64,000 bases of DNA from Methylomonas sp. UP202. GTDB lineage: Bacteria; Pseudomonadota; Gammaproteobacteria; Methylococcales; Methylomonadaceae. Below, in pieces: positions 12,603 through 16,310 of this stretch. The stretch covers positions 1 through 64,000 of the forward strand of contig NZ_CP123898.1 in NCBI RefSeq assembly GCF_029910655.1, written 5' to 3'. The notes under the pieces were generated by a model. The model was given only the letters and a program-made list of their open reading frames with translations. It did not search any database and was not told the DNA's origin. The position numbers and the translations under genes are program-made. Each line of letters starts with the position of its first letter. Within the stretch, counting starts at the first letter, position 1.

Positions 12603-12613
12603 GGGTGAGAGAC

Positions 12614-13168
12614 ATGTTTAGACCGATGCTATGGATATCGGCGTTGTCGCTGATGAGCGGCTGCACGCTGATTCCCGATTCCTATGGCTGCAAGGGGATG
12701 CCGGACGACCCGATTTGTATGTCGACCGAATTGGCGTATCAAGCGACGGACAACCTACCGCCGCCCAGTGACACTGCGGCTGCCAACGGTGCGACGCGAC
12801 CGGTACCGCCGACACTGACCGGGGCCGGTCCGGAGCGATCGCCGGCGCCGAAAATCGAAGACCCGACGCCGATTCGCACGCCGTCGGAAGTGATGCGAAT
12901 TTGGGTGGCGCCCTGGGAGGACAAAGACGGCGATTTGAACGTCTCGGGTTACGTGTTTACCGAGATAGAGCCCAGGCGTTGGATGATCGGAAAGAAATCC
13001 GTGACGCAAAATCCACCATTGCGGGCTCTGCAAGTGGAACAACGCGATCCGCCAAAAAAGGACAAATTGGATCTTGATGGCTTGGCGGAGGGTAAACGAA
13101 TGCCGGGTGGGGCTGGCAAAATGCCGGAGGGTTTTGAAGCACTGTTGAAAGCCAGATCGCCTTTTTAG
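12614..13168 (+). CDS. traV: Conjugation outer-membrane lipoprotein TraV
   Basis: This 184-residue lipoprotein (VirB7-like) anchors the TraK/TraB core to the outer membrane. The lipobox is SLMSGC with Cys17. TraV features follow: CTLIPDSYGCKGMPDDPICMS with two further Cys, then a long Pro-rich linker and RIWVAPWEDKDGDLNVSGYV. I chose the ATG at 12614, preceded by GGGTGAGAG, over an in-frame GTG three codons upstream. Confidence 0.87.
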   Translation: MFRPMLWISALSLMSGCTLIPDSYGCKGMPDDPICMSTELAYQATDNLPPPSDTAAANGATRPVPPTLTGAGPERSPAPKIEDPTPIRTPSEVMRIWVAPWEDKDGDLNVSGYVFTEIEPRRWMIGKKSVTQNPPLRALQVEQRDPPKKDKLDLDGLAEGKRMPGGAGKMPEGFEALLKARSPF

Positions 13169-13182
13169 CCAACGAATTGACC

Positions 13183-13279
13183 ACCTTTAACCGGTGAGTA
13201 GGGCGTTAGATCGCCGAACCGGGCGTAGCCGCGCCCGAGATCAGGGTTTAACGCCCATTTACTCACTGTTTTTAAAGGT
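13183..13279 (+). promoter_or_regulatory. Long structured leader before the pilin gene
   Basis: An extended imperfect stem lies directly before traA. ACCTTTAA (13183-13190) pairs with TTAAAGGT (13272-13279), and GTGAGTA plus GGGCGTTA (13194-13208) pair with TAACGCCC (13249-13256) plus TTACTCAC (about 13259-13266). Inside it is GGGCG/CGCCC (13221-13225 and 13232-13236) with a 6-base loop. It leaves only six bases before the ATG, so folding could control pilin translation or stabilise a processed pilin mRNA. Confidence 0.55.
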
Positions 13280-13285
13280 ATCACT

Positions 13286-13597
13286 ATGAAAATGTTGCAA
13301 AAAAAATCCGCGATCCAGTTCTTGGTTGCATTGATGGCCGTGGCCGGCATGTTTCTGTTCTCCACCGAATCGTTCGCCGGTACCAACAGTAGCGAGTTCA
13401 ACGCTGTGTACACCTTGTTGACCAACTGGATGCAAGGCTCGTTGGGTAAATTGATTGCATCGGCGTTCATCGTCGTCGGCCTGATTGCCGGGGTGCTGCG
13501 TAACTCCCTAATGGGCTTTGCGGTCGGTGTCGCCGCCGGTCTGGGTTTGTTCACCGCCCCCGGCATCATCAACGCCGTCGTTACCGCGACGTTGTAA
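13286..13597 (+). CDS. traA: F-type propilin TraA
   Basis: This 103-residue protein is a propilin. A long basic leader and hydrophobic signal end at ESFA (residue 31), leaving a mature pilin of 72 residues, close to the 70 of F pilin. The mature part has two hydrophobic helices (LIASAFIVVGLIAGVL and FAVGVAAGLGLFTAPGI) separated by a short basic loop (RNSL), the pattern needed to sit in the inner membrane before extrusion. Its position between traV and traC is that of SXT/IncA/C operons rather than of F. It is bracketed by strong RNA hairpins. Confidence 0.87.
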   Translation: MKMLQKKSAIQFLVALMAVAGMFLFSTESFAGTNSSEFNAVYTLLTNWMQGSLGKLIASAFIVVGLIAGVLRNSLMGFAVGVAAGLGLFTAPGIINAVVTATL

Positions 13598-13621: not shown

Positions 13622-13765
13622 ACCGTGACCGAAGTTTGAATCCGCAAGCTGTTGCGTGATGTTCGACACACGATCGGTAACGAGGTTCGGCGGGCAACCG
13701 CCATCTGACTTTCGAAATGGGTACTGAAAGTGGATCCTCGGCGAAATAACAATGGCAGGGAAAAG
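13622..13765 (+). ncRNA. Candidate structured RNA (omega/HEARO-like) before PLMP ORF
   Basis: These 144 bases carry no gene but many nested stems. GTGACCGA (about 13625) pairs with TCGGTAAC (about 13674) with one mismatch and encloses CGCAA-GCTG-TTGCG. GGCGG (13689-13693) and CCGCC (13698-13702) close a GCAA tetraloop, and CTTTC (13709-13713) pairs with GAAAG (13726-13730). The stretch ends directly at an ORF resembling the N-terminus of IscB. IscB genes are preceded by a guide RNA (omega RNA, Rfam HEARO) of similar size, so I infer a relic or derivative. No covariance check was possible. Confidence 0.45.
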
Positions 13766-13918
13766 GTGGCGGTGTTTGGTTGCGATGGGACGGCGCTAAC
13801 GCCGTGCCACGCGGCGAAAGCCAGAAAGCTGGTCAAAAACCGACGCGCGCGGGTACGAACGAAGCAACCTTTTTCCATACAGTTAAATCACACACCCAAC
13901 GGCCATACCAATGCCTAA
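13766..13918 (+). CDS. Stand-alone PLMP/RRXRR-domain small protein (IscB N-terminus-like)
   Basis: This 50-residue basic protein reads AVFGCDGTALTPCHAAKARK, then LVKNRRARVRTKQPFSIQL. This fits the PLMP (RRXRR) domain that starts IscB and contacts its omega RNA: a short strand, P-C-H-x-A-[KR]-A-R, then [KR]A.V and PF[TS]I.L. Full IscB proteins have 400-500 residues with RuvC and HNH domains; none follow here. I prefer the GTG at 13766, with AGGG six bases upstream and a start matching IscB proteins. An in-frame GTG at 13730 would add 12 residues. The stop overlaps the traC start by 8 bases, suggesting translational coupling. It may be a decayed fragment or an exapted RNA-binding protein. Confidence 0.6.
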   Translation: MAVFGCDGTALTPCHAAKARKLVKNRRARVRTKQPFSIQLNHTPNGHTNA

Positions 13919-16310
13919 GCTCGACTATCACAGAATCGACCAGCTTTTTTCCATCCTGGCGTTTGACCCGGACACGCAGCTGTTTTTGGGGGAAGACCGG
14001 AGTCTTAGCTTCGGGTTTCTGTGCGAGCCCTTGTTCGGTAACGATCCCTCGATTGCCGATCGCATCAATGTCTTGCTGAACCAGGAATGGCCGATCGATT
14101 CCTTGCTCCAAATCAGCTTGTGGGCGTCGCCGGATATCGACACTATTCTGGCGGCCCTGAAAACGCGGCGATTGGAGCAACAAAACCCGCTGTATCAAGC
14201 TCTGGTTTCATCCAATGTGGACTATTTGCGCGGGGCGACGCAACATGCGATCGACGTCGCTTTGGCGACGCGGGTCCGGCGGTTTCATGTCTTGGTCACG
14301 GCCAAACTCCCGCTGGCCGGCGCCAAACCCAATGTCAAAGAGATGAAGCAAGCGACGGAGTTGCGTCTGGCCTCGTCTCAAGCCCTGGCCACCATCGGAT
14401 TGAGGCCGAAGACGCTGACGGCCGACGTGTATGTGCGACTCCTCAATACCCTGCTTAATTGGCAGCCTGAAGCCAGTTGGCACGATCTGGTGGTTCCCGA
14501 ATGCGATCCGCGCAAGTTGATCCGCGAACAGTTATTCGACTTCGATAACGAATTGGCGGTCGACGTGACCGGCGTGACGCTGGGCAATAAACGGGTGAAA
14601 ACCCTGTCGGTCAAACGCTTTCCGGATCAAATCTATTTCGGTTCGGCGCTCAGTTATTTAGGGGATCTGTTGAGCGGCGCGCGCGGGATTCGGGACAACG
14701 TGTTGCTGACGGTGACCTTGCATTACCCGGATTCGGAAGCGACGCGGATGAAGTTGGAAACCAAACGTCAATTCACCGCCAATCAGGCGGTCGGTCCGCT
14801 GTTGACCCTTGTCCCGCAATTAGCGGTCCGAAAGCACCATTTCGATTTGCTGTTCGAGGCGCTGAACGATGGCGATCGTCCCATCCGCGCTTACTTCGGC
14901 ATGGTGCTGTTTTGCGACCCGCAGGAAGAATCCCAAGCGGTGGCCAACGCGCGTACCTACTACCGGGAGTTGGGCTTCCAACTGCTCGAAGACCGCTATT
15001 TTTGTTTGCCCTACTTTTTGAACTGTCTGCCGCTGGGTGCCGAATTGCGCCAGGTGCAAGTCAGTAACCGCTATATCACGCTGGCGACCCGGCACGCGAT
15101 TCCGCTATTGCCCTTGTTCGCCGACTGGGCCGGTACCGGTTCGCCGGTGCTGAATTTTGTATCGCGGGGCGGCCAGCTGGTCAATGTCTCGCTGTTCGAT
15201 TCCGGCTCGAATTTCAATTGTTGCATCGCTGCCCAATCGGGCTCCGGCAAATCGTTCTTAACCAACGAACTGATCGTCAATTACCTGACCGAAGGGGCGC
15301 AGATCTGGGTGATCGACGTCGGCCGCTCGTACCAGAATCTGGCCGATACTTTGGATGGCGAATTCATGGAGTTTACCGCCGACAAGCAGATTTGCCTCAA
15401 CCCTTTCGAACTGGTGCGAAGTTGGGAAGACGAGGCCGACGTGGTGGCCGGTTTGGTCACCGCGATGGCGGCGCCGACCGAAAAGCTTAGCGACTTTCAG
15501 ACCGCCGGCTTAAAGCGGGTCCTGAAAGGTCTTTGGGACGAAAAGGCGCAAGCGATGACGGTCGATGACATCGCCCAGCGCTTGCGCGCGGAAGCCGATC
15601 AGCGGCTCATGGATGTCGGCGAACAGCTGTTCCCCTTTACCTTGGCCGGCGAATACGGCCGGTTTTTCAACGGCCGAAACAATGTGCGGTTCGAAAACAG
15701 TTTTACCGTGTTGGAACTGGAGGAGTTAAAGGGCCGTAAACACTTGCAACAAGTAGTGTTGCTGCAATTGATCTACCAAATCCAGCAGGAAATGTATCTG
15801 GGCGAGCGCGACCGGCGCAAGATCGTGATTATCGACGAGTCCTGGGATTTGCTGAGCATGGGCGATGCCGCCACCTTCATCGAACACGGCTACCGGCGGT
15901 TTCGCAAATACGGCGGCGCTGCGGTCACCATCACCCAATCGGTCAACGACTTGTACCGCTCGCCGACCGGGCGGGCCATCGTCGAGAACTCGGCGAATAT
16001 GTACTTATTGGGCCAAAAAGCCGAAGCGCTCGAGGCCATCCGAGCGGAAAACCGCCTACCGATATCCGACGGAGCCTTTCAATTGCTCAAATCGGTGCAC
16101 ACCATTCCCGGCGTGTACTCGGAAATTTTCTTCATCACCGAATACGGGCAAGGCATTGCCAGGCTGGTGGTCGACCCCTACAAGCGCTTGCTGTATTCGA
16201 CCAAAGCCGAGCACGTCAATGCCATCAAAAACCTCAAGCGGCAAGGGCTCACGACCGATGCCGCTATCCGACAGTTATTACAACCACCGGAGATCCGCCA
16301 TGTCGCTTAA
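13911..16310 (+). CDS. traC: Type IV secretion ATPase TraC (VirB4 family)
   Basis: This 799-residue ATPase drives pilus assembly at the inner-membrane face. The N-terminal 400 residues are the TraC/VirB4 N-domain. Walker A is AQSGSGKSF at about residues 441-449 and Walker B is IVIIDESWDLL near 638. VTITQSVNDLY around 680 and the IVENSANMYLLGQK motif are family features. It has no membrane segment. Its start overlaps the small PLMP gene and its stop overlaps trbI. Confidence 0.93.
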   Translation: MPKLDYHRIDQLFSILAFDPDTQLFLGEDRSLSFGFLCEPLFGNDPSIADRINVLLNQEWPIDSLLQISLWASPDIDTILAALKTRRLEQQNPLYQALVSSNVDYLRGATQHAIDVALATRVRRFHVLVTAKLPLAGAKPNVKEMKQATELRLASSQALATIGLRPKTLTADVYVRLLNTLLNWQPEASWHDLVVPECDPRKLIREQLFDFDNELAVDVTGVTLGNKRVKTLSVKRFPDQIYFGSALSYLGDLLSGARGIRDNVLLTVTLHYPDSEATRMKLETKRQFTANQAVGPLLTLVPQLAVRKHHFDLLFEALNDGDRPIRAYFGMVLFCDPQEESQAVANARTYYRELGFQLLEDRYFCLPYFLNCLPLGAELRQVQVSNRYITLATRHAIPLLPLFADWAGTGSPVLNFVSRGGQLVNVSLFDSGSNFNCCIAAQSGSGKSFLTNELIVNYLTEGAQIWVIDVGRSYQNLADTLDGEFMEFTADKQICLNPFELVRSWEDEADVVAGLVTAMAAPTEKLSDFQTAGLKRVLKGLWDEKAQAMTVDDIAQRLRAEADQRLMDVGEQLFPFTLAGEYGRFFNGRNNVRFENSFTVLELEELKGRKHLQQVVLLQLIYQIQQEMYLGERDRRKIVIIDESWDLLSMGDAATFIEHGYRRFRKYGGAAVTITQSVNDLYRSPTGRAIVENSANMYLLGQKAEALEAIRAENRLPISDGAFQLLKSVHTIPGVYSEIFFITEYGQGIARLVVDPYKRLLYSTKAEHVNAIKNLKRQGLTTDAAIRQLLQPPEIRHVA

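Follow-up and report, generated by a model that had tools for sequence, protein, structure and literature searches.

Stand-alone IscB-type PLMP genes in F-type transfer operons of Methylomonas and its relatives, with a co-occurring RNA module and a putative regulatory role

RNA-binding proteins that regulate themselves through cis leader elements are well known, the ribosomal-protein leaders being one example, and among regulators derived from nucleases TldR keeps its guide RNA and binds DNA. For the PLMP domain, we know of no described function outside a nuclease. Within the nucleases, it is a domain that meets RNA. In the IscB structure, PLMP recognizes the terminal hairpins of the omegaRNA through contacts that are mainly sequence-independent (PMC9640706). 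In IsrB, PLMP touches the Shine-Dalgarno sequence as well as the hairpins that stand in tandem at the 3' end, and the IsrB authors suggest that the PLMP-omegaRNA contact could contribute to the regulation of IsrB expression (PMC9581776).

The window analyzed here, a stretch of 64,000 nucleotides from Methylomonas sp. UP202, lies on the smaller of the two contigs of the assembly (5,526,923 and 148,958 bp), and this 148,958-bp contig is probably a plasmid. All of the window features described below are on the forward strand. The traV lipoprotein gene (12605..13168; Pfam PF09676, E 5.4e-19) is the upstream neighbor of traA (13286..13597), a TrbC/VirB2-type pilin gene that matches PF04956 at E 1.8e-5 and 25.3 bits, slightly below the cut-off of 27.9, and whose counterpart in the syntenic DH-1 plasmid is traA. 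Downstream lies traC, encoding the transfer ATPase (13911..16310; PF11130, E 2.8e-74). Between traA and traC, a frame from GTG 13766 to 13918 translates into 50 residues and a stop (VAVFGCDGTALTPCHAAKARKLVKNRRARVRTKQPFSIQLNHTPNGHTNA). The first-pass annotation had taken this frame for the first domain of IscB standing alone, with a P-C-H-x-A-[KR]-A-R block and a PF[TS]I.L end, and had noted an 8-base overlap of its stop with the start of traC; these observations are confirmed. The HMM search that it proposed as a check returned a match to PF14239 (RRXRR) of 38.4 bits (E 1.5e-9), which exceeds the curated cut-off of 25 and covers profile positions 1-48 of 174; the closest solved sequence is TbaIscB (9k30, E 2.1e-5), and both sequence blocks are present. 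In the NCBIfam model guided_IscB, by comparison, only positions 5-45 of 314 are matched, at 37 bits, far under the cut-off of 175. Neither RuvC nor HNH follows the domain: the frame stops at 13918, and traC begins at 13911.

The protein shares its domain family with IscB and IsrB (PF14239, NF040563, RF02033). An IscB RNA-guided endonuclease has RuvC plus HNH and, upstream, a HEARO omegaRNA with its guide, none of which accompanies the window ORF; unlike IscB and IsrB, the transfer-operon protein is also without a bridge helix. HEARO (RF02033) had no match in the window, even at a permissive threshold, or genome-wide, and these searches found no omegaRNA guide beside the gene. No full-length IscB was found in the host genome by profile search. 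AlphaFold2 predicts a beta-beta-alpha-beta-beta arrangement (pLDDT 86-88 in the core, 75 overall), an arrangement in keeping with what has been reported of PLMP in IsrB (PMC9581776).

The ORF is real, but its 50-residue extent, as first annotated, needs qualification. Upstream of GTG 13766, the frame stays open as far back as 13709 and offers a second in-frame GTG, at 13730. In three sister plasmid-type loci (L004, L005 and L144), an ATG stands 42 nt before the conserved core, where the window has CTG (13724), followed by GTG 13730; AGGG lies immediately 5' of GTG 13766. Given the ATG starts of the sister loci and GTG 13730, a 62-residue product is at least as likely as the 50-residue product from 13766, a start that is probably too far downstream. 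The gene is accordingly placed at 13730..13918, with 50-62 codons depending on which GTG is used. In the PLSDB gene table of the Methylomonas sp. DH-1 plasmid (L144), the tag RS22245 is absent between traA (RS22250) and traC (RS22240); the gap falls exactly on the PLMP ORF, which the source record may list as a pseudogene.

The same gene recurs between traA and traC in relatives, where the first-pass annotation had proposed to look for it. In the host genome, there are three PF14239 matches, all limited to the start of the profile, and three F-type transfer operons, each with the PLMP gene between the pilin gene and traC; two of the operons are on the large contig and one is in the window. A traC scan kept 80 loci, in which a small HMM then sought a PLMP ORF. 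One was present in 26, always adjoining traA (26/26), and 23 of these loci come from Methylomonas, Methylomicrobium, Methylovulum, Methylocaldum or Methylococcaceae; the other three are from a Methyloversatilis MAG (L007) and two Gammaproteobacteria MAGs (L015 and L073). Another 31 loci of the scan have a pilin match and no PLMP ORF, and most of the loci without the gene resemble SXT/R391-type elements. With profile A3, a search of 311 Methylococcales genomes gave 58 stand-alone-type places in 35 genomes, at 73.8 bits or more and with open frames of 67-266 aa, separated by a gap in score from full-length IscBs and IscB pieces at 56.4 bits or less. Thirty loci were fetched from the 58, and all 30 have the order pilin-PLMP-TraC on one strand. 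Across the class (369 genomes), the host's own copies were the sole stand-alone tra-type matches, the others being IscBs, IscB pieces and one fusion. That fusion (L132, 1498-2223, in a class-level genome) joins a PLMP domain (PF14239, 25.9 bits) ahead of QueH (PF02677, E 1.2e-56), an epoxyqueuosine reductase that takes part in tRNA modification, and presents PLMP as an RNA-binding add-on outside IscB. The PLMP alignment found no stand-alone gene in viral contigs; 21 of the 22 loci there have frames of at least 305 aa, and one frame, of 148 aa (L233), is IscB-like. As many as four PLMP-tra loci share a single genome in Methylomonas (G207 and G628), and several other genomes hold three or two; such genomes carry several related F-type transfer systems.

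The gene itself has already been predicted in databases, in Methylomonas and relatives, by name only and in listings that give no function, operon context or RNA partner. With the alignment as query, sequence databases yielded 135 protein clusters at E <= 1e-3, mostly of 80-95 aa among the 120 listed; the 50-mer as sole query found one near-identical copy in a protein search. Where NCBI names are given among the clusters listed, they read "RRXRR domain-containing protein" or "hypothetical protein." Four 66-aa PLMP proteins (P0073, P0075, P0085 and P0090) bear the JGI name "acyl-coenzyme A synthetase/AMP-(fatty) acid ligase," which is evidently wrong.

A short ORF of this kind could be a neutral remnant of an IscB insertion between traA and traC. 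IscB pieces near HEARO RNAs do occur in relatives: in L090/L113 and L103, frames of 52 and 64 aa stand right after well-scoring HEARO RNAs, and we regard these as genuine decaying fragments and as a contrast case. Some close pairs of PLMP genes also show little synonymous excess (synonymous to nonsynonymous changes 2 to 3 in L004/L005, 6 to 12 in L006/L007, 4 to 10 in L021/L022 and 7.7 to 12.3 in L020/L093), whereas others are dominated by synonymous change (9 to 0 in L014/L094, 16 to 2 in L001/L014, 16.5 to 5.5 in L018/L025 and 11 to 4 in L002/L025). Over the whole gene, 186 pairs with pS between 0.05 and 0.7 have a mean pN/pS of 0.54. The mixed ratios arise because the core is constrained and the tail relaxed: in 32 close pairs (pS 0.05-0.5), which share sequences, pN/pS is 0.18 over the 41-codon core and 0.58 over the tail. 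Nine positions (V, G, C, A, A, R, L, P and I) are invariant in 27 PLMP sequences. The domain core is under purifying selection, which bears out the selection that the first-pass annotation suggested, and the near-neutral change that it said would mark a dead fragment is far from what relatives show in the core. The gene, moreover, keeps one position across dozens of operons, and no omegaRNA was found beside it. Together with the selection, this already contradicts a neutral remnant, which we judge very improbable.

The PLMP gene is accompanied by an RNA module. Neither this module nor a stand-alone PLMP gene was described, by title or abstract start, among the open-licence papers that literature searches listed; the module is new here as the operon partner of the gene. 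Like the recurrence in dozens of operons, it was not part of the first-pass annotation. Read by eye in the leaders, it consists of a local stem ending in CCG or similar, AG, a linker of 3-6 nt, and a stem of 5-7 bp with a GNRA loop on top; the CGAG therefore lies partly within the first stem and partly beyond it. The loops of 48 modules are GCAA (29), GCGA (8), GAAA (5), GTAA (4) and GTGA (2). Usually, two copies precede traA and one is at the PLMP gene. In the window, the PLMP-side copy (13676..13706) is the only canonical one, with CGAG at 13681-13684, a stem pairing 13689-13693 with 13698-13702, and a GCAA loop at 13694-13697; it matches the covariance model described below at 29.2 bits. 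Immediately downstream, a further hairpin, ACTTTC...GAAAGT, is possible by fold prediction around the PLMP start region (13708..13731), and L004 has one too. The traA leader of the window (13194..13266) is divergent: a long imperfect hairpin that keeps CCGAGA near its apex stands in place of the tandem GNRA modules of the chromosomal operons and has no match to the model. The traA leaders of L004, L005 and L144 are built in the same way.

The module is found where the gene is found. A pattern scan for CGAG followed by a GNRA stem gave 66 forward matches and 1 reverse match in 30 sequences with PLMP (338 kb; L003 and the window overlap), versus 2 forward and 0 reverse in 54 sequences without it (525 kb), and the strand bias points to a module that acts as RNA. 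We built a covariance model, R1, from 38 sequences (31 nt) and searched with it 77 of the 84 sequences that the host and the traC scan had supplied. The 71 matches at or above 19.6 bits are all on the coding strand and fall in 28 of 29 PLMP loci and in 0 of 48 loci without PLMP, one of which (L023) ends at a contig edge before traC and cannot be judged. The PLMP locus without a match, L009, has two variant CGAG-GNRA hairpins before traA by eye. Since R1 was built from these same traC-scan loci, tests on wider genome sets weigh more, and some genomes in those sets also overlap the ones behind the model. Searched in full, the host genome gave 31 matches; the 7 best (E 1.4e-5 to 0.15) all belong to the three tra operons, and the 24 that remain (E 0.35 to 9.4) are noise or lie opposite one operon site, on its reverse strand. 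Among 121 family genomes, a match lies beside the gene in all 13 with a stand-alone tra-type gene. In 20 further loci, R1 matched 19 at E <= 0.01 and missed L222. A Methylomonas plasmid that has traV, traA and traC and no PLMP gene (AM2-LC) lacks the module. Six weak matches away from operons in the 121 genomes (E 8e-4 to 0.01) have no CGAG ahead of the hairpin, and Rfam returned nothing for five of them; the one match to the module pattern in viral contigs (L224) was judged to be chance. For the window region and the L011 leaders, Rfam gave no family beyond one unrelated sub-threshold match (E 2.5).

Structural constraint was assessed on alignment A4, which holds 23 traA leaders chosen by distance to traA, with duplicates removed, and omits the divergent leaders of the window, L004, L005, L144, L009 and L073, as well as L008, whose leader is cut by the contig end. 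(Alignment A5 omits the window, L004, L005 and L009.) A4 was relied on instead of A1, in which the stem-B pair count is biased by the choice of rows having the stem. On A4, the two GNRA stems were predicted by RNAalifold, as was the proximal A stem. Under the four-stem structure, 95.9% of cells pair, versus 91.9% when shuffled, and 19 cells are changed on both sides, versus 6.1, a count reached in 0 of 500 shuffles. Pairs with changes on both sides number 4, which is unremarkable (54 of 500 shuffles reach as many), and the 10 pair types (matched by 275 of 500) are no excess. These counts suggest that the module stems covary in part. A second kind of constraint is seen in the chromosomal group, whose third module extends over the opening codons of the PLMP gene as called. 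Among 16 non-redundant genes, wobble bases in the module stems were identical in 306/306 comparisons, whereas the N position of the loop was identical in 72/120 and core codons in 939/2084; because the comparisons share sequences, these figures are given as a contrast, with no p-value. Its location inside the called coding region means that the third module may serve the 3' side of traA rather than act as a PLMP leader.

By eye and count, the module seems to share with the end of an omegaRNA the order of its parts (helix strand, CGAG, linker and terminal hairpin, ahead of the PLMP start). Some IscB genes of Methylococcales relatives follow HEARO RNAs, the consensus of which ends in uuggCGAgGcgaAcauUAC, and the hairpin then stands before the start codon. 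Upstream of IscB-type ORFs, a GNRA hairpin of at least 4 bp occurs within 75 nt in 23 of 28 stretches (mean 0.9 and maximum 5 in 300 shuffles), and in 8 of the 28 the 40 nt ahead of the hairpin contain CGAG or CGAA as well (shuffle mean 0.2); two of the stretches are inner matches of the same ORFs, one belongs to the QueH fusion, and many are interrelated. For these omegaRNA 3' ends, a GNRA-capped hairpin just 5' of the IscB start is near-general, and the Rfam HEARO model stops short of it. In many IscB loci, as it seems to in the tra module, the GNRA hairpin lies between a CGAG-type sequence and the PLMP start codon, and the published structures set PLMP against terminal hairpins (PMC9581776, PMC9640706). 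In contrast to the omegaRNA, the tra modules are short, repeated and located at a pilin gene, have a shorter linker and lack UUAC. The likeness in order and GNRA loop is one of eye and count. R1 had no significant match in 23 IscB loci (best E 0.31) and finds no omegaRNA ends, and we therefore speak of resemblance and claim no homology.

The protein might instead serve as a decoy that ties up omegaRNA ends and so shields its element from cleavage by a resident IscB, in the manner of an inhibitor derived from a domain of its own target. Several Methylococcales genomes do hold full-length IscBs and HEARO RNAs, and PLMP touches omegaRNA ends in the structures (PMC9581776, PMC9640706). The host, however, has neither a full-length IscB nor a HEARO match, and a decoy leaves the cis modules and their codon-level constraint unexplained, so that we consider this role improbable.

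We think it somewhat likely that the gene encodes a domesticated IscB PLMP domain that has neither RuvC, HNH nor guide and that regulates the transfer operon as a small RNA-binding protein, recognizing the modules. The protein would bind the stem, CGAG, the linker of about 3-6 nt and the GNRA-capped hairpin, which resemble a stripped-down omegaRNA 3' end, at what are usually two sites just 5' of traA and one at the PLMP gene. The traA module nearer the gene ends 23-27 nt before an ATG in all 11 loci with the hairpin (14 were examined; some of the 11 have extra ATGs), and binding there could set the translation or the stability of the traA message. TraC might be controlled as well, through the overlap of the PLMP stop with the traC start, and the protein may regulate its own gene via the PLMP-side module. 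The sign we favor is negative feedback on pilin and TraC. The sequences show the gene, its position, the selection on protein and RNA, and the co-occurrence of protein and module; from these, we infer direct binding as well as the direction, sign and level of control. Such an arrangement would be like that of the ribosomal-protein-leader autoregulators, in which a small basic domain that binds RNA is paired with conserved RNA structures, one at the gene that encodes it and another at a gene under the same control; it differs from them in the origin of both protein and RNA, and the regulation here is a proposal. The putative regulatory role suggested in the first-pass annotation now has a conserved, co-occurring RNA module behind it, and its interpretation is partly supported.

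Two further arrangements would keep the modules and dispense with their recognition by the protein. The ORF could serve only for translational coupling into traC, its peptide being irrelevant, with the modules acting alone, for example in mRNA processing near the pilin gene. In 28 of 30 loci, the PLMP stop shares 4-11 bases with an ATG that belongs to a long frame, and modules lie on both sides of traA, both of which fit this arrangement. The strong selection on the amino-acid core, however, is something that coupling by itself would not require, and where the gene is absent the modules are absent too; we hold coupling alone to be a poor prospect. Alternatively, the modules could be bound by a host factor or be RNA stabilizers, while the PLMP protein works elsewhere in transfer. 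The tie between protein and module is one of co-occurrence, and GNRA hairpins are common RNA elements. Against separate roles stand the concordant presence and absence (28/29 versus 0/48 loci, 13/13 genomes and 19/20 further loci) and the same-genus plasmid that has neither PLMP gene nor module. We rate separate roles as unlikely, though less so than coupling alone or a decoy.

Several observations count against a regulator that recognizes the modules. The window and its three sister loci have traA leaders with no canonical module, and L009 and L222 are missed by R1. R1 is silent on omegaRNA ends, the HEARO searches gave no match, and the covariation counts are modest. The contacts between PLMP and hairpin in IscB, moreover, are described as mainly sequence-independent (PMC9640706).

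A regulatory PLMP protein would resemble TldR, a TnpB-derived RNA-guided transcription factor (PMC13418256), in that a part of an OMEGA system carried by a mobile element has given up cutting to regulate genes, a shift that is proposed here. The tra PLMP protein differs from TldR in having neither guide nor nuclease fold and in its proposed target, mRNA. Because the HEARO searches found no omegaRNA and hence no guide RNA, the comparison with TnpB-derived regulators drawn in the first-pass annotation holds only in spirit. More tentatively still, and with the balance tipped slightly to the side of doubt, we suggest that an OMEGA system has here been reduced to its PLMP domain and multi-copy miniature omegaRNA 3' ends and that, instead of cleaving DNA, it now controls a conjugative pilus post-transcriptionally; the domain alone would then have fixed a role in expression control which, for the entire nuclease, is no more than a suggestion of the IsrB authors.

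Cas9 probably descends from IscB, and a free PLMP protein kept together with an RNA module would reveal the abilities of the domain by itself. At 50-90 residues and about 30 nt, the protein and the RNA would make a handy pair for binding studies, and the idea, already in print, that IsrB expression is regulated by contact between PLMP and omegaRNA becomes directly testable. If the proposal is true, F-type conjugation in these methane-oxidizing bacteria has an extra layer of control.
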